Virus record (IMG/VR): IMGVR_UViG_3300042890_001320
Coordinates: 1-47,692 of that record
Reading direction: 5' to 3' (one strand)
Length of the DNA: 47,692 nt
Origin: a virus
Position numbers and translations under genes: made by a program. The notes under the pieces are model-generated. The model searched no databases, was not told the DNA's origin, and saw nothing but the letters and a program-made list of their open reading frames with translations. Numbering within the stretch: the stretch's first letter is position 1; each line of letters starts with the position of its first letter. Below are positions 4,698-47,692 of this stretch, piece by piece.

Positions 4698-6707
4698 ATG
4701 GCAAGTCACGCACCACAAACACTATTATTTGTTACCAACGAAGGTTCGGTATCAACCTCAGGAGGTTCTACAAGAATCGCTAAAGGACAAATTGGTCTTG
4801 TTGATAAAGGAGGAGTACCAACAGCAGCTGGTATGCCTGTAGTTACTTCTGTAACATCAATAGCAGCAGACAGAAACAGATTATACGAATTGAGATTAGG
4901 TGTCGCACCTTTAACCCCAACTCGTTCACAGTCTAACAAAGCGTATTCTACAGTACCTTTTAAATTATCAGAAATTGTTGACGTAAAAGTTAACTACCCT
5001 AAAATGGGAGTTTCAGTAGATGAGTTTATCATAGGATACGATGGAATCAATGCAAGCTCAGCATTAGTTATGAGCAATGGAGACAATGAAGTAATTGACA
5101 TTACTTTATCTGGAGAAGCTATCGGAATGTTAGGATACCCAGAAGCAAAAGTAACAGTTAAACTTTATTTAGAAGCACCTAATGAAGGTTCTTTTACAAT
5201 GCACCAAATCGTTGAAGAAGGTGTTAAACGTTTAAAAGATGTAACTTTAGTAGGAGGAGTGCCTATCACAACTTATATTGATATAAGCCCTGTAAATAGC
5301 ACAAATATAAGTTTAGCTACTTTGCAATTAAATGATGTACCATCAACTTTTTATAGATTGACTGTAAAAGATAAAGGTAATCATACTGCACTAGGATTAG
5401 TACAAGCACAGTATCCTACATTAGTAGTAAAAAGAGAAGCTTATACTCCAGGTACATCTGAGGCAGGAGTTTCAACTTATGTTGTAATTGGTACGTCTTT
5501 ACCAGCAGCTTACTCATTATCAGTAGCAGCTTTAGCAGATGCTAACTGTGACGGTACGCCTGAGTTAACTACTACTACATCTACAATTGCTTGGGTTGCC
5601 GGAGCTACTTGCTCTGCTATACAAGAGACTTTTACTTTGCAACTAAAAGATACCGACTGTGGTACTAATAGATTAGCAGCAGTACAAGCAGCTTACCCAG
5701 AATTAGAAGTTTTAGTAGACACAGAAAACGCAAGTTGGACACAAACAGGTACAGTAGCTGGTCTAACTACAGGAGAAACTTTGAGCCTTGTTATAAATGG
5801 AGTTACATATAATACAAGTGGTATTTTTGCTACAGATATAGCTACAACTATCACAAACTGGGTAGCAGGGAATGCAGCAGCTATTCTTGCAGCTACAGGA
5901 GCTGTAGTAACTAAAGGTACAGGTAATACAATTGTTTTCACAGATTTATCAGAAGGGTTTGTTGTAGTTGCCGCTTCAGGAGCTGCTTTTACTTTAGAAC
6001 TATCTGAACTTGCAAACATAGGAACAGGAACTACAGGAGCTTGTCAAACAGTTTATAGAACTGTAGTAACTTCAGATATAGTATGTGAAGATTGTTCTCC
6101 AGTACTTAGAGACTTATTTGTTGTAACTGCACCAGCACCTTTCCAAGGAGTTCACTGGGTAGCAGCACCTACAACTTTTAGCTCTACAGCATTAATGGGA
6201 ATCCACTTAAAAGGTAAAGTAAATATCTTTGCAGGAAGCGAAGAGTTTAGAGATGAGATGCCTTTCGTGTATAGTTCTACAAGATTATCTATTGCAAATG
6301 CAGCTCCAGGTATGGTATCTGAGTCATTTAACATGGGTACTAATGGAAGATTTAAAGTTAAATTGATGTCTATCGCAACTGAACCAGAAGCAGTAGGTGG
6401 TCAATTCTACGATATGGAAGAAAGAACTAGAGTTTACTTTGAAAATCGTCAAAGATTAGCAGGTAACAACTTTGGTAAGTTAGTATTAGGTCAAGAGTCT
6501 CACTTAAAACCAACATCTCAATACGTTGATTATGTTGTAAGTGTAAGAACAAATAGATTTGCTCAATCTTTCTCAGGAGAAGTAGTTGAAAACTTTGACT
6601 ACCACATCTTAGTAGAAGTAGGTAAAGCTACATCGGTTCACAACTTGCTAACAACATTGGCAGCAGGTAATAACATCACTTTACCGGCACTAGTAGCAGG
6701 ATACTAA
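4698..6707 (+). CDS. Capsid- or tail-associated structural protein with internal duplication
   Basis: A 669-residue virion-type protein, rich in Gly, Ala, Ser, Thr and Val, consistent with beta-sandwich domains. The N-terminal 200 residues form one conserved-looking domain. Residues about 210-260 ('YRLTVKDKG...LGLVQAQYPTLVV') are repeated in diverged form at about 315-345 ('FTLQLKDTD...LAAVQAAYPELEV'), each followed by a Cys-containing strand segment. The C-terminal 190 residues return to a compact domain with several aromatic and charged residues. It is the last gene of its transcript: a strong terminator starts 14 nt after the stop. In a podovirus-like crAss phage this is best explained as an auxiliary/decoration capsid protein. 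A tail tube or sheath is less likely because no long tail genes are present. Confidence 0.5.
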   Translation: MASHAPQTLLFVTNEGSVSTSGGSTRIAKGQIGLVDKGGVPTAAGMPVVTSVTSIAADRNRLYELRLGVAPLTPTRSQSNKAYSTVPFKLSEIVDVKVNYPKMGVSVDEFIIGYDGINASSALVMSNGDNEVIDITLSGEAIGMLGYPEAKVTVKLYLEAPNEGSFTMHQIVEEGVKRLKDVTLVGGVPITTYIDISPVNSTNISLATLQLNDVPSTFYRLTVKDKGNHTALGLVQAQYPTLVVKREAYTPGTSEAGVSTYVVIGTSLPAAYSLSVAALADANCDGTPELTTTTSTIAWVAGATCSAIQETFTLQLKDTDCGTNRLAAVQAAYPELEVLVDTENASWTQTGTVAGLTTGETLSLVINGVTYNTSGIFATDIATTITNWVAGNAAAILAATGAVVTKGTGNTIVFTDLSEGFVVVAASGAAFTLELSELANIGTGTTGACQTVYRTVVTSDIVCEDCSPVLRDLFVVTAPAPFQGVHWVAAPTTFSSTALMGIHLKGKVNIFAGSEEFRDEMPFVYSSTRLSIANAAPGMVSESFNMGTNGRFKVKLMSIATEPEAVGGQFYDMEERTRVYFENRQRLAGNNFGKLVLGQESHLKPTSQYVDYVVSVRTNRFAQSFSGEVVENFDYHILVEVGKATSVHNLLTTLAAGNNITLPALVAGY

Positions 6708-16970: not shown

Positions 16971-17092
16971 CAGGAGATAGGGCGTAGTTAGAAGTTACTT
17001 GAAAACTCGAAAGGGTAGATAGCGACAAGTTAGAAGTTACTTGAAAACTCGAAAGGGTAGATAGCGACAAGTTAGAACGCCCTTGAAACCTG
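16971..17092 (+). repeat. 42-bp tandem repeat folded into a two-armed symmetrical element
   Basis: Two exact 42-bp copies lie head to tail at 16986-17027 and 17028-17069. A degenerate third copy starts at 17070 (AGTTAGAA, four changed bases, CTTGAAA). Each copy gives an arm: ACTTG pairs with CAAGT (16997-17001/17026-17030 and 17039-17043/17068-17072), enclosing ACTC-GAAA-GGGT, a short stem with a GNRA-type GAAA tetraloop. AGGGCGT (16979-16985) pairs with ACGCCCT (17077-17083) to close both arms, and CAGG (16971-16974) can pair with CCTG (17089-17092) outside. It starts 8 nt after the stop of the 412-aa gene and lies before two terminators, so it would be the 3' part of the appendage transcript or a released RNA. 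A DNA role (iteron, packaging site) is also possible. Confidence 0.72.
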
Positions 17093-17107
17093 CTTTTATA
17101 ATATAAA

Positions 17108-17138
17108 GAATAGAGGTTTTTTGGTTTCCTCTTTTTCT
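17108..17138 (+). terminator. First terminator of the appendage transcript
   Basis: AGAGG (17112-17116) pairs with CCTCT (17128-17132) across an 11-nt T-rich loop, followed by TTTTC. The stem is short but has a T-tract. It probably acts together with the stronger hairpin 30 nt downstream. Confidence 0.6.
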
Positions 17139-17145
17139 GTTGGGT

Positions 17146-17178
17146 GAGGAGGAGCTTAGGCTCCTCTTCTTTTTTTAT
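17146..17178 (+). terminator. Strong intrinsic terminator
   Basis: GAGGAGC (17149-17155) pairs perfectly with GCTCCTC (17160-17166) across a 4-nt TTAG loop. Three more pairs (one G-T) extend it to ten, and a run of T follows (17170-17176). It ends 17 nt before the next promoter, so it closes the appendage operon cleanly. Confidence 0.9.
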
Positions 17179-17194
17179 AAGAATTTTTAACCAA

Positions 17195-17226
17195 TTTGGA
17201 AATGGCATATATTTTTATTAATTTTG
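17195..17226 (+). promoter_or_regulatory. Bacteroidota-type promoter P2
   Basis: TTTG at 17195-17198 and TAATTTTG at 17219-17226, spaced 20 bp. The -7 element ends only 18 nt before the ATG at 17245, so the leader is very short. This position also shows that the TTG at 17224, which lies inside the -7 element, cannot be the start codon of the following gene. Confidence 0.85.
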
Positions 17227-42869: not shown

Positions 42870-45800
42870 ATGCTAATAGAAAACCTACCAGATTCAAGTA
42901 TCCCACCAAAAACCCTACAAGACGTAAGAAATGAAGAGTTAAATTTTTTGGTAAATGATATTAGAGTTGATAACTATGATAAAGCATTATCAATAGTCAC
43001 CCCTTTATCTGAAATTTCAGGTAATTTACAAAGAACCGGGGGTTTGCCAAAACAAGATACGATTGCTAGCCTTACTATGAAGGAAGCTAACAAGGTTAAG
43101 CTAAACGACTATTCTGATGTAAAAGTTTCTGATGTGTACAGAGATTACTCTGATGGAAGCAGAATCGCCAGATATGATACTTACTCTACAGTAAATCTAG
43201 ACCAAGAGGAGTACGCAGCTAGCAAGCAAACTTCTGGGGACTTATGGAGTAGGGGTTTAGCTAATTTTGGGCTAAAAACAATAAATAATGCTGTAGGTAC
43301 AATTGGGGGGTTTGCTTATGGAGTCGTTGATGCAGCCCGTACAGGAAGTATGCAATCTTTGTTCGATAACAAGTTTATGGATTACATAAATGATTTTGAT
43401 ACTTATATAGGAAATACAAACGCTATCTATAAGTCAAAAAAAGATATGGAAGCCACAGGCTTGGATTATTGGTCTAGGGGAACTACTTGGGCTGACGATG
43501 TTACTAGTGGACTATCTTTTCTTACTGGAGCTGTAGCAGGAGAAGCAGCTATGGCTTATTTTACTGGAGGCTCTTCACTAGCTACAACAGCAGCAAGGGT
43601 AGGTACAAGATTAGGACAGTCTTCAAAAGCCCTAAAAGCGTTTAATACAGCGAGAAAAATGTCTAACCCGGCAGCAAAAGTTTTCTCTACAGCAAAATTA
43701 GAAACAAGCCTTGGTATAAATTTTGGTAAAGCCGGAGAGTTATTAAATACTGCAAGGTTTGTTGCAACAAGCTCTGGTTTTGAATCAGGATTTGAGGCTA
43801 ACGCTTTCAAAAGAGAGATGGAAGAAGCCTATTATACAGACTTTGAGAGATTAAATGGGAGAATGCCAACCATAGAAGAAGAGAGAGAATTTAGAAAAAA
43901 TTTAGCTACAGCTTCTGACGGGGTATACGCAGCAAACTTTGCAATAACCGCACCATCTAACTTACTTGTTGTAGGTAAAATGTTTGGTATTAAAAACCCA
44001 TTGTCTGTACCTAATAAATGGGCAGACTCAAAACTTTTTGGAATAGGGTATAAAAAAGTAGGGGAAGAGTTTGTAGAGACTTCTGCAAATAAGCTTCAAA
44101 AAGTTTTAGGAAAAAGCTATGCCTTTACTAAACCTATGTTTGTAGAAGGTATCTGGGAGGAAGGGATGCAATCAGCTGTACAGAATACAGGTAGAAACTG
44201 GGTAGAGGCAAAATATGACCCCCAGTATACTAAGAACGGTTTAGGTGTAATAGATTCATTTTCTAAGGGACTCGCTGAAACTTACGGAACAGCTGAAGGC
44301 TGGAAGGAAATACAAATGGGTATGCTAATAGGTTTACTTGGGGGTACTGTTGGTAACAAAATATCTACAGGAAAGTGGAACCCGGATTATAGTAAAGCAA
44401 AAGCTGAAAACAAACTTATTGTAGACACTAGAAATACATACTCTGGTACCAGAATAGCTGAAGTAATGGCTTACGGTAATAGGGTACAACAAGCACAAGC
44501 TAACTCTGAAAAAGCAGAGGCAGCTGGGGATTTTACTGGTCAAGAGATGGCAAGAAAAGATGCTGCTTTAGCTCAATTAAACTTTGCTCATAATCTAGGA
44601 TATATGGAAGATGCTGTATCTGACACAGTAACAGCTATCAAGAATATGGATAACGAAACCATAATGAAAGAGTATGGTGTAGATGAGAAAGGTGCAGAAT
44701 CTTTAAAAGAAAGCATGATTGCTGAGTACAAAAATACAGCAGATACTTATAAAAAGAATAGTGATTTTGCTGAATATTTTATAAACTCAAGATTATCAAA
44801 AGAGGAAAAGGCAGAACTTAAAGGGCACGATGTAACAGCTCTTAGAGAAGCTTTAGCTTACGAATTGACTATGGGTGCCGAAATGGATACTTTTTCTAGT
44901 AATATTCTACAAGCTATAAAAAATAAAGTTGGTACCACAATACTAGGTCAAGATATATCTGACACCCTAGATATTGAGCATGTATTATCAAAAGCCGGTA
45001 AAGATACAAAAAGACAAGTTGAAAAGAAAGTTTCTCAGATAACGAAATTAAAGTCTGAGATGATGTCTTTAGACGAACAATATAAAAAATTAGAAACCAC
45101 TTTCTACAACTCTACTTCTGAAGAACAGAAGAAAATCTTGCTAGGAAAGATGGATGCGATAACTTCTAAAAAAGCACAGCTAGAACAAGAAAGAACTAAT
45201 CTAGCTAAAGAAACAGACATATTGTTTAGCACAGCTAAGCTAAGCAACCCTTTTAGTAAAGAAGGTTCAAACGTAATTATTACAGCTGCTAAACTAGAAG
45301 TTTTACAAGAGCAATCTAAAGCTATAAAAGACTTAGTATCTTCTTATGAAAGAGTAAGTCCACAAGATGCCTTAGAGCTACAAAAATTAGTAGAGGAGTA
45401 TACTAAATCACTGAGCTCTTTCCAAAGATACGCAGATTTAGCAAGACAAATCACAGACCCTAAATTAGGACTTAGAGGTAAAAGAAATTTTATATCTGAA
45501 ATCAAAAGAGACAAATCTCCTAATGAGGCTACAATCGAAATGATTGAATCTTTGCTACCTAGAATGGTACAAGCTAAAAACCAAGTTGTTGAAGCTACTG
45601 TTGAGGGTAACAAAGCAGTACAAGATGTTACAGACAAAGGAGAAGAAGGTAAGGCACCTGAAGAAGTCAGAGAAACTCAAAAAGATGGGGATACTATACC
45701 TATGCCTACAGCTGAGGAAAAACAAGCCGCAAAAGAAGCAGAAAAGAAAAAAGTAACAGACGAGTATGATGCCAAGATAGCAGGTTTACAAACAACAGCC

Positions 45801-47692
45801 GAAGAGGTAGTTGATGTAGAAGACAGCCCTAAACAAATAGCTAAGTTAAGAGAGCAAGAGCAAAAAGAATTACTTGCAGCTATACCGGAGGCAAAAAATG
45901 CCCTGACAGATGGTAAAGTAGACAAAAACAAATTAACTAATCCAGAAGATATAGCTAAGTTTGAAGAAATCTATGATAGATATGACAAGCTGATAACACC
46001 TTTATTGAAAGGTCAAAAAAGTAATAGTTGGAGGAATAGTTTACAAAATATAAAAGATGAATTAAACAAGCTTGGCACCAAAGAAGAAAAATTACAATGG
46101 CTCTCTGATAATGGCTATTTAGAAAATTTTACCCAAAATGGTAAAAGCAGTACGTATTTAAAAACAGCAACAGGCAGAGTAGTTGTAAAAATAAAAATAG
46201 GTTCTATAGTAGTACCCTTTTATATATCTACCGGTCAAGGCTTAAAAACAGATGTTGAGACTAATAAGTGGTATGTATTTTTTGGGCAAGGAGAAAATGG
46301 GTGGTTTAATAAGACTAGTGGAAAAGACATAAATACCCAATACGATGTAAAGGTATTCCAAGATATTGCAGAAGTATTAAATGAAATAGGCAGCGTAAAA
46401 GAGGAGTACAAAAACCATGAAGATAGTAGAGGTTTTATGGATTTAGGGTTCACAGCAAGTGCTGAAGAACAACTAAAAACATTAATTGATTTTATAACCC
46501 CAATACAACCTACTTTAAAGGATGGTAGTATGGTAACTACTCCTGAAGAATTAAAACAGCTAAAAGAGAATATCCAAGCGGTTAAAGATAGAGTAGAAAA
46601 GGAACTTGGTATGACTAATCAAGGTAATAATACTACCTCTGATACAAAACAAACAGCAGATAATACTAAAGAAATCAAAAAGCTTGAAAAAGAAAAACAA
46701 GCTAAGTTAGATGCTATTGATAAAAAATATCAAGACAAAACGCAAGAGCCGGTACAAGAGAAAAAGTCACTGATAGACTCTATAGTTGAAATGGTAAAAA
46801 ACAGTCCATACTTACTAGAGAATTTTGGTGAAAATATCTTAGACTTAGTTCCTACTGAAGCCGAGATAGAAGAGTTTTATGACTTAGCGGCTAAAGCTAT
46901 TGATGACCCACGTATTGATACGGAGTTAGTGGCTTTTAAAAACCCTTACGACTCTAAGAGATTTTCTCCTACAACAAGACCGTCTTTAACAAAGGCTGAA
47001 ATAACTAGATTACAAGAGCTAAACCAAAAGATGGCTAATTGGCAGTTGATAGAAGGATACCAAAACGAAAACGGAGTATCTTTACAACAAATGATAACAC
47101 AAGCTGTAGCAGTAAGACAAACAGTAGAACCGATAATCAGAGAAAAACTTACAGACTCAGACTTAATAAACTTATCTGATAACGAGCCTCTAGAAGTAGA
47201 CGGAGCCAGCGGTATTAGAAACGAACAGTACATACAAGTATACGAAAATGTATTTGTTAAAAAGAAAGGAAACTCTGTACAAATATCACATTTAACTCTT
47301 CCTGGGCTTTTAGAAAGAATGGGAATAACCGGTGATATAGGTTATGTACAAACTAAATGGGAAAAAGGTAAAAATGTAGAAGTAAAAGGTTCAGCTAAAG
47401 TAATTACACCAGAAGAAGTAGAGGAAAACTCTTTGCCTGGAGCTAACTTTATAGTTACACTTGCAGATGGAAGCAAAGTTAATTTAACAGTAGAAAGAAG
47501 TGGTGCTATATCTTTGAAAAGCGAAGACTTCCCTAAAGTTATGGCTGAAGCTAATATGAAGCACGTAGAAGGCACTCTAAATAGAAATGGGGGGTATTCT
47601 CCTGTTTATGATTTGGAGACCGGAGAGAAGCTAAAAACAGACTACAGAAACGCATCTGAATATTCTCCTAGAGAAATCTATAATATGGAGCC
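42870..47692 (+). CDS. Giant internal virion protein, 3' partial (at least 1607 codons)
   Basis: The ATG at 42870 is 2 nt after the preceding stop. I read the frame as open to the right edge, so the C-terminus is outside the window. Residues about 200-260 contain an amphipathic, Ala/Gly-rich region ('FLTGAVAGEAAMAYFTGG') preceded by 'DYWSRGTTWADDVTS', and about 430-500 contain 'EEGMQSAVQNTGRNWVE' and 'WKEIQMGMLIGLLGGTVGN'. This pairing recurs in very large internal proteins of crAss-like phages. About 720-1000 is a long coiled-coil region rich in Lys, Glu and Gln. The final visible 250 residues include beta-rich segments. Giant proteins in this place in the family include the virion RNA polymerase, but no DxDxD-type motif is visible in this part. 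Confidence 0.65.
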   Translation, partial: MLIENLPDSSIPPKTLQDVRNEELNFLVNDIRVDNYDKALSIVTPLSEISGNLQRTGGLPKQDTIASLTMKEANKVKLNDYSDVKVSDVYRDYSDGSRIARYDTYSTVNLDQEEYAASKQTSGDLWSRGLANFGLKTINNAVGTIGGFAYGVVDAARTGSMQSLFDNKFMDYINDFDTYIGNTNAIYKSKKDMEATGLDYWSRGTTWADDVTSGLSFLTGAVAGEAAMAYFTGGSSLATTAARVGTRLGQSSKALKAFNTARKMSNPAAKVFSTAKLETSLGINFGKAGELLNTARFVATSSGFESGFEANAFKREMEEAYYTDFERLNGRMPTIEEEREFRKNLATASDGVYAANFAITAPSNLLVVGKMFGIKNPLSVPNKWADSKLFGIGYKKVGEEFVETSANKLQKVLGKSYAFTKPMFVEGIWEEGMQSAVQNTGRNWVEAKYDPQYTKNGLGVIDSFSKGLAETYGTAEGWKEIQMGMLIGLLGGTVGNKISTGKWNPDYSKAKAENKLIVDTRNTYSGTRIAEVMAYGNRVQQAQANSEKAEAAGDFTGQEMARKDAALAQLNFAHNLGYMEDAVSDTVTAIKNMDNETIMKEYGVDEKGAESLKESMIAEYKNTADTYKKNSDFAEYFINSRLSKEEKAELKGHDVTALREALAYELTMGAEMDTFSSNILQAIKNKVGTTILGQDISDTLDIEHVLSKAGKDTKRQVEKKVSQITKLKSEMMSLDEQYKKLETTFYNSTSEEQKKILLGKMDAITSKKAQLEQERTNLAKETDILFSTAKLSNPFSKEGSNVIITAAKLEVLQEQSKAIKDLVSSYERVSPQDALELQKLVEEYTKSLSSFQRYADLARQITDPKLGLRGKRNFISEIKRDKSPNEATIEMIESLLPRMVQAKNQVVEATVEGNKAVQDVTDKGEEGKAPEEVRETQKDGDTIPMPTAEEKQAAKEAEKKKVTDEYDAKIAGLQTTAEEVVDVEDSPKQIAKLREQEQKELLAAIPEAKNALTDGKVDKNKLTNPEDIAKFEEIYDRYDKLITPLLKGQKSNSWRNSLQNIKDELNKLGTKEEKLQWLSDNGYLENFTQNGKSSTYLKTATGRVVVKIKIGSIVVPFYISTGQGLKTDVETNKWYVFFGQGENGWFNKTSGKDINTQYDVKVFQDIAEVLNEIGSVKEEYKNHEDSRGFMDLGFTASAEEQLKTLIDFITPIQPTLKDGSMVTTPEELKQLKENIQAVKDRVEKELGMTNQGNNTTSDTKQTADNTKEIKKLEKEKQAKLDAIDKKYQDKTQEPVQEKKSLIDSIVEMVKNSPYLLENFGENILDLVPTEAEIEEFYDLAAKAIDDPRIDTELVAFKNPYDSKRFSPTTRPSLTKAEITRLQELNQKMANWQLIEGYQNENGVSLQQMITQAVAVRQTVEPIIREKLTDSDLINLSDNEPLEVDGASGIRNEQYIQVYENVFVKKKGNSVQISHLTLPGLLERMGITGDIGYVQTKWEKGKNVEVKGSAKVITPEEVEENSLPGANFIVTLADGSKVNLTVERSGAISLKSEDFPKVMAEANMKHVEGTLNRNGGYSPVYDLETGEKLKTDYRNASEYSPREIYNME

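Follow-up and report, generated by a model that had tools for sequence, protein, structure and literature searches.

A conserved pseudo-three-fold RNA element directly downstream of a tail-appendage gene in a crAss-like phage

Introduction

What occupies the short non-coding stretch behind the tail-appendage gene of a crAss-like phage, and on what does it act? The window (the whole stretch of 47,692 nt analysed here) is the 47.7-kb virus record of this phage, and the gene located 3' of the element codes for tail ring protein 2 (PF25702, E 1.2e-28), whose closest cultured relatives are found in the Cellulophaga phages phi17:2 and phi4:1 (43%). The appendage gene is followed by 42-bp repeats, a hairpin with a T-rich loop, a terminator and the ring gene, in that order. 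The initial annotation described the repeats as two identical arms closed by a separate stem, without a named counterpart, and considered either a structured 3' RNA or a DNA site such as an iteron set or a packaging signal. According to PMC2864571, it is most uncommon for bacteria to regulate a gene through structured RNA in the 3' UTR, and precedents are few.

Architecture of the element

Tandem Repeats Finder returned a period of 42 with 2.2 copies at 100% (16986-17077) and, as an alternative, 2.5 copies at 93% (to 17088), in agreement with the two exact 42-bp copies, the partial third and its decay that had been reported. The stretch does begin after the appendage stop, 7 nt past the ORF, and both the closing stem AGGGCGT/ACGCCCT (ensemble pair probability 0.92-1.0) and the ACTC-GAAA-GGGT tetraloop hairpins of the two arms (0.78-0.96) are present. 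The five-pair arm stem ACTTG/CAAGT can also be found in the letters, but its register was rejected, at -3.4 kcal/mol compared with -4.6 kcal/mol for the register used by the relatives.

The element is a pseudo-three-fold three-way junction in which one unit occurs three times, as each of the two arms and as the closing stem, so that the earlier division into two arms and a separate stem has to be replaced by three equivalent units. Each unit follows the same plan, a linker RRTTAGA, a 7-nt helix, a loop WGAAR, a short helix, a loop WGAT and the helix back, and the closing stem is the third copy of this plan, opened at the loop (Table 1). Its helix letters differ from those of the arms, but it shares with them the internal loop (TGAAA opposite AGAT) and the linker; loop and linker letters of the outer unit and an arm are identical at 16 of 16 positions. 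Loop and linker letters common to all three units amount to 48/48 in the window, 46/48 in the relative L013 and 40/48 in the relative L010, compared with a maximum of 32 in 20,000 shuffles.

Table 1. Features of the element and its neighbours, in window positions
Feature	Position	Strand	Evidence
Entire pseudo-three-fold three-way-junction RNA element	16970..17092	+	covariance model 125.2 bits (model trained on it)
Outer unit, distal helix 5' strand CAGG, partner 17089-17092	16971..16974	+	sequence; RNAalifold
Outer unit, internal loop strand AGAT	16975..16978	+	sequence
Outer unit, junction helix 5' strand AGGGCGT, partner 17077-17083	16979..16985	+	7/7 pairs; probability 0.92-1.0
Junction linker 1, AGTTAGA	16986..16992	+	sequence
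Arm 1, AGTTACT-TGAAA-ACTC-GAAA-GGGT-AGAT-AGCGACA	16993..17027	+	junction helix 5/7 pairs
Junction linker 2, AGTTAGA	17028..17034	+	sequence
Arm 2, exact arm 1 copy	17035..17069	+	repeat analysis
Junction linker 3, AGTTAGA	17070..17076	+	sequence
Outer unit 3' half, ACGCCCT, loop TGAAA, CCTG	17077..17092	+	sequence; RNAalifold
Tail-appendage gene, 412 aa	15725..16963	+	ORF; homology by tblastn
Appendage C-terminal domain, ends ..RYKHT	about 16073-16960	+	common to all phages with the element
Intrinsic terminator, neighbour outside the element	17146..17169	+	kept in relatives without the element

Linkage to the appendage domain

Single-protein and profile searches of viral_contigs with the appendage C-terminal domain identified four contigs besides the window (L004, L010, L013 and L014), and L004 was also retrieved by a ring protein search. 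In L010, L013 and L004 the element lies directly after the stop of the gene for the homologous domain, which brings the class to four known members with the window, and the distance from stop codon to first paired base is 7 nt in the window, 1 in L013, 1 in L010 and 0 in L004. The clearest member is L013, with linkers GGTTAGA, AGTTAGA and AGTTAGA and helices TGCCCCT/GGGGGCA, TGTTCTT/GAGAATA and TGTCTCT/GGAGATA, each with 7/7 pairs. A T-rich stretch stands right after the outer helix in all four members (CTTTTATAATAT, TATTTTTAAACA, AATTTTTAAACA, TTTTAATAATAT).

Among the ten contigs searched for both, domain and element occur together in four, L014 has the domain without this element, and the five relatives known by their ring gene (L005-L009) have neither (5/5). 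The ring protein 2 of L010 belongs to the lineage of Flavobacterium phage FpV4 (55%) and, because window and L010 differ in ring-protein lineage, domain and RNA have moved or persisted as a pair; in different phages the two stand behind differing N-terminal parts. Within L010 and L013 the element is located mid-operon, about 30 nt ahead of a fibre-like gene, and a terminator scan found no sense-strand terminator there, while in the window and L004 a proper terminator follows about 55 nt downstream. What the four members share as a neighbour is thus the upstream gene, and the operon junction that had been assigned to the element holds for the window and L004 but fails for L010 and L013. Of the two terminators that had been placed behind it in the window, both exist as hairpins, but only the second scores as an intrinsic terminator.

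Wider searches added no further member. The phage collection yielded no cultured phage with the domain, and a direct search with the repeat's own letters met only the window itself among the viral_contigs and gave no convincing match in phages. The pattern GTTAGA..GTTAGA..TWGAAACC returned nine stretches. Two of these are the elements of L010 and L013 described above, and seven were judged by eye to be unrelated sequence lacking the unit plan. The unit pattern was found in 66 stretches of viral_contigs, with four matches at 6-7/7 pairs, all within L010 and L013, and the remaining 64 matches at 0-5/7, and in at least 118 stretches of genome_contigs, where two of the 81 matches scored (at 80 loci) reached 6/7 pairs and none of the 81 had a matching outer helix. 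Protein query A1 retrieved no relative from genome_contigs, and a match of model R1 within phi4:1 coding sequence, the best of eight phage records (20 bits, E 0.019), was taken as chance. Two AlphaFold2 runs predicted the domain poorly (mean pLDDT 43 and 38), and a search for solved structures found none.

Conservation of the fold

RNAalifold recovered the same three-way junction from an unguided MAFFT alignment of the window, L010 and L013. In the named structure 94.4% of 90 cells are paired, compared with 81.2% in shuffles, and both sides have changed in 12 of the 30 pairs, compared with 4.6 in shuffles and 1-3 with slid partners; these compensatory changes bear out the conservation of paired bases in relatives on which the initial annotation had made its reading depend. 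Across 11 units from the four elements, pairing holds at 70 of 77 junction-helix positions; L004 arm 1, whose frame is unclear, is excluded from this count. The nine distinct junction helices pair at 58 of 63 positions, which 3 of 200,000 permutations reach, an optimistic figure because the frame was chosen after the loops were seen.

With a covariance model built from L010 and L013 only, the window scored 66.1 bits and L004 scored 19.9 bits (E 0.012), while a sequence-only model from the same two members gave 28.6 bits for the window and left L004 unmatched. The model from three members matched L004 over its full length in the locus search, with 30.5 bits and an E-value of 5e-5 in 166 kb, unlike a looser first search of whole records with that model, in which L004 went unreported at E <= 1.

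The folding energies speak in the same direction, modestly for the window, where the sense strand reaches z -2.26 with 3 of 200 dinucleotide shuffles as good, and z -2.4 in the comparison of all four members, so that the free-energy comparison proposed earlier came out slightly in favor of structure. Sense-strand values for L013, L010 and L004 are -4.4, -3.1 and -3.4, and the antisense values are -2.8 for the window, -1.6 for L013, -1.0 for L010 and -1.9 for L004. The junction helices contain 13 G-U pairs against 3 A-C, and this bias, together with the shuffle z in L010 and L013, favours a sense-strand RNA.

Single-sequence ensembles disfavour the arms: the arm junction helices of the window stand at probability 0-0.03, arm 2 of L010 is near 0 in the unit frame with a shifted helix preferred, and the arm 1 junction helix of L013 reaches 0.15-0.19. 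These low values arise because the repeat copies pair with each other. The predicted minimum-energy fold of L004 is without the junction, and its arm 1 is irregular. Taken together, the element is very probably a conserved sense-strand RNA, and the compensatory changes, the G-U bias and the sense-strand values of L010 and L013 uphold the structured 3' RNA among the possibilities first listed. The right thing had been seen with the wrong symmetry; the element is real, conserved, sense-strand and unnamed, and its function is what we infer below.

Distant relatives of the domain

Profile searches of 395 genomes of an order, 395 of its phylum and 397 of a family gave a domain match in four genomes (L237, L238, L241 and L242); a second domain match, in L236, was dropped, having eight internal stops and lying beside a metalloprotease-like frame. 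The nine domain relatives, window included, divide into four with this element, one with another pseudo-three-fold junction, three with other structured or repeated RNA and one with nothing comparable. L014, a phage with an ordinary portal (PF04860), has after its domain a structured stretch of 200 nt (4817-5016) whose lowest-energy fold is four-branched and which scores 2.9 bits, unmatched, with the element model. The domain relatives of the bacterial genomes L237 and L238 are 66% identical to each other; right after the first lie three 160-nt tandem structured copies (1932-2411), and L238 has at least three (reverse complement 1945-2472) plus a fourth cut by the end of the stretch. Each of these repeats combines short CTCTTAACTGAG-type hairpins with one long hairpin, and between L237 and L238 the hairpin letters differ while the fold looks alike.

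The bacterial genome L241 (domain match E 7e-8) has a three-way junction at 1984-2171, a few nt after the stop, in letters unrelated to those of the window. Its linkers measure 6, 6 and 7 nt (ACCATA, ACGAGA and ACCACGA), and its arms start almost identically (GTAGCTCTTC and CTAGCTCTTC, with the closing strand GACGCTCTCC), though the near-equal linkers and arm starts may be chance likenesses. The sense strand folds at z -4.55 and the opposite strand at +0.74, and a large three-way junction of some kind also arose in 45 of 300 shuffles. After the domain of L242, a weak match (E 1.5e-4), come a terminator and a long hairpin, with no comparable element evident. A three-copy rule for the distant relatives was rejected on account of L238, with its cut fourth copy beside the three of L237, and three-foldness is no rule of the domain, because L014, L237, L238 and L242 carry different structures.

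Relation to known RNA elements

At gathering thresholds none of the 4227 families of Rfam 15 matched anywhere in the window, in keeping with the earlier remark that no named RNA or DNA element of this arrangement was known, and the best scores of permissive Rfam scans of window 16900-17220 and of the L013 and L014 stretches were far below gathering. We found no published description of such an element in the literature on phage, three-way-junction and symmetric RNAs, in which a closed-access report is conceivable. Kink-turns carry their tandem G-A pairs beside a 3-nt bulge that lies to the 5' side on the GA strand; by eye, such pairs are conceivable between the loops WGAAR and WGAT, but the surplus nucleotides are found on the opposite strand, 3' of the GA, and the kink-turn was rejected. 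In TRAP-binding leader and CsrB-type RNAs, repeated motifs are matched to a symmetric or multivalent protein, but these motifs are unpaired triplets or separate hairpins, with no junction of equal units as found here. The sib retroregulator of phage lambda is a simple RNase III hairpin acting from the 3' side on the preceding gene; both are phage 3' RNAs, but our element is a three-way junction with repeated loops. RNA of the phi29 pRNA type is needed for packaging and binds the portal, and it works in a symmetric assembly whose symmetry comes from several copies. This prohead RNA contains a three-way junction, according to the part of PMC5340915 available to us. The present element, unlike it, has its symmetry inside one chain and is located behind an appendage gene, not packaging genes, a position that speaks against membership of the phi29 type.

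A close likeness in kind is the L17 downstream element, for which the available part of PMC2864571 describes a structured RNA right after one protein gene, a proposed 3' UTR feedback and G-U pairs that mark the strand. Its sequence and fold are different (the window element has no Rfam match), the accessible text of PMC2864571 describes no three-unit symmetry, and for a phage that text alludes only to upstream-gene regulation. GOLLD, ROOL and OLE, described as ornate and symmetric in the part of PMC12286853 at hand, are far larger and owe their symmetry to homo-oligomers, whereas here pseudo-symmetry is contained within about 120 nt. Structured 3' RNA elements are already known as a broad kind; what appears new is the architecture and the coupling to the domain. 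We take the element for a probable new RNA type that cooperates with the host-recognition appendage or acts upon it.

Proposed role and alternatives

The computed fold, its compensatory conservation, the three-unit symmetry, the linkage to the domain and the placement 0-7 nt after the stop in all four members form the basis of our tentative proposal, which stands at a little under even chances, that the element is a structured RNA which ends the appendage mRNA on its 3' side and acts in cis, evolving and moving with the C-terminal domain. That it acts on or with the upstream gene, by whatever means, we consider somewhat more probable than otherwise, and its position fits 3'-UTR feedback elements, in which the encoded protein or an RNase acts on a 3' structure. 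From the established footprint of the ribosome, a ribosome terminating at the appendage stop codon would cover and melt the outer unit. Since only 0-7 nt separate the stop from the first paired base, closure of the third unit would be coupled to the end of translation, and the closed three-unit form would exist only after translation of the appendage has ended.

The three copies of a tandem-GA-like internal loop and linker could then be three equal binding sites for a multivalent protein. Three equal sites for an oligomeric protein are possible, though we would rather bet against them; such a partner would most likely be trimeric, with the appendage's own C-terminal domain as first candidate. 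Phage fibres are commonly trimers, and it is this, together with the three equal sites, that leads us to propose the appendage itself as the putative binder of the element in its own mRNA. Such binding may adjust the stability of the appendage mRNA or re-initiation on it, or it may help the subunits to assemble. An improbable extension is that the three-unit scaffold holds three C-terminal domains made from its own message and nucleates the fibre tip or stays in it; the junction of L241 would then be the same device in other letters.

The alternative that survives best, and which we regard as possible but doubtful, is a plain 3'-end stabilizer or retroregulator that sets mRNA lifetime, either by a fold that keeps 3' exonucleases out or through RNase cleavage, and whose three-fold look comes from duplication, with no symmetry-matched partner. 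The place just behind the stop codon in all four members and the compact fold, more stable than shuffles on the sense strand, are as expected of it, and regulation of an upstream gene by 3'-UTR elements has a precedent in the available part of PMC2864571. A hairpin would suffice for such a task, however, and instead loops and linkers are kept while helix letters change. A small RNA that acts in trans after being processed out of the 3' end of the appendage transcript would agree with the size of about 120 nt and the T-rich stretch after the outer helix in all members, but we hold it improbable, as the tight linkage to the domain is unexpected for a free sRNA; in L010 and L013 its release would need processing because a further gene follows.

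A site acting as DNA (appendage-module recombination, a mutagenic-homing hairpin, an integron-like site, an iteron set or a packaging signal) would account for domain and element behind varied N-terminal parts, like a swapped module. The pair-type bias of 13 to 3 argues against it, as does the window DNA fold, which is no better than shuffles (z -0.84). The element tracks the domain of one gene and not a genome position, and it is absent from five relatives that keep the ring gene, which goes against the iterons or packaging signal suggested earlier. For mutagenic homing, the DGR reverse transcriptase (RVT_1) was found in 0 of 6 records, several of them fragments, while the control was positive in 3 of 14 genomes. 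Integron attC has opposed core sites GTTRRRY / RYYYAAC, whereas the three GTTAGAA copies of the window misfit GTTRRRY and are direct, not opposed. We consider a DNA site very unlikely. An elaborate intrinsic terminator, which the T-rich tails could suggest, is the least likely reading of all, since a scan for a GC-rich hairpin with an immediate T run, limited to simple hairpins, called the element in none of the four members, the window and L004 have their proper terminator downstream, and a terminator has no need of conserved loops.

At the minimum, these results describe an RNA class, absent from Rfam, with compensatory changes and with a clear gene association through which its function can be tested. 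If the proposed cis-acting role is true, the appendages of some Bacteroidota phages would have a dedicated RNA partner, exchanged together with the recognition domain, and RNA would gain a new role in the assembly or the expression of viruses. Structural biologists would also take an interest in near three-fold symmetry that occurs naturally within one RNA chain.

Other features of the locus

At the appendage/ring junction a conserved hairpin (window 17112-17133) has a constant loop, UUUUUGGUUU, and a varying stem, GAGG/CCTC in the window and L004-L007, TTAGG/CCTAA in L009 and ATAGT/ACTAT in phi17:2 and phi4:1; a terminator-like hairpin comes after it, and both are independent of the presence of the three-armed element. 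Upstream of the ring gene, TTTG, 20 nt and TAATTTTG (17195-17226) fit what we take to be the Bacteroidetes-type promoter TTTG..TANNTTTG, and ATG 17245 is a more probable start of the ring gene than TTG 17224. The appendage region also codes for a phage protein with DUF4874 and DUF4832 (13452-14966), which has a weak C-terminal match to Por_Secre_tail (24.7 bits, cut-off 27), as in secreted host proteins. A 1335-aa protein with DUF5122 beta-propeller repeats is encoded at 9110-13117. The window ends inside a giant gene, an open frame of at least 1607 aa (42870-47690) that leaves its right end.
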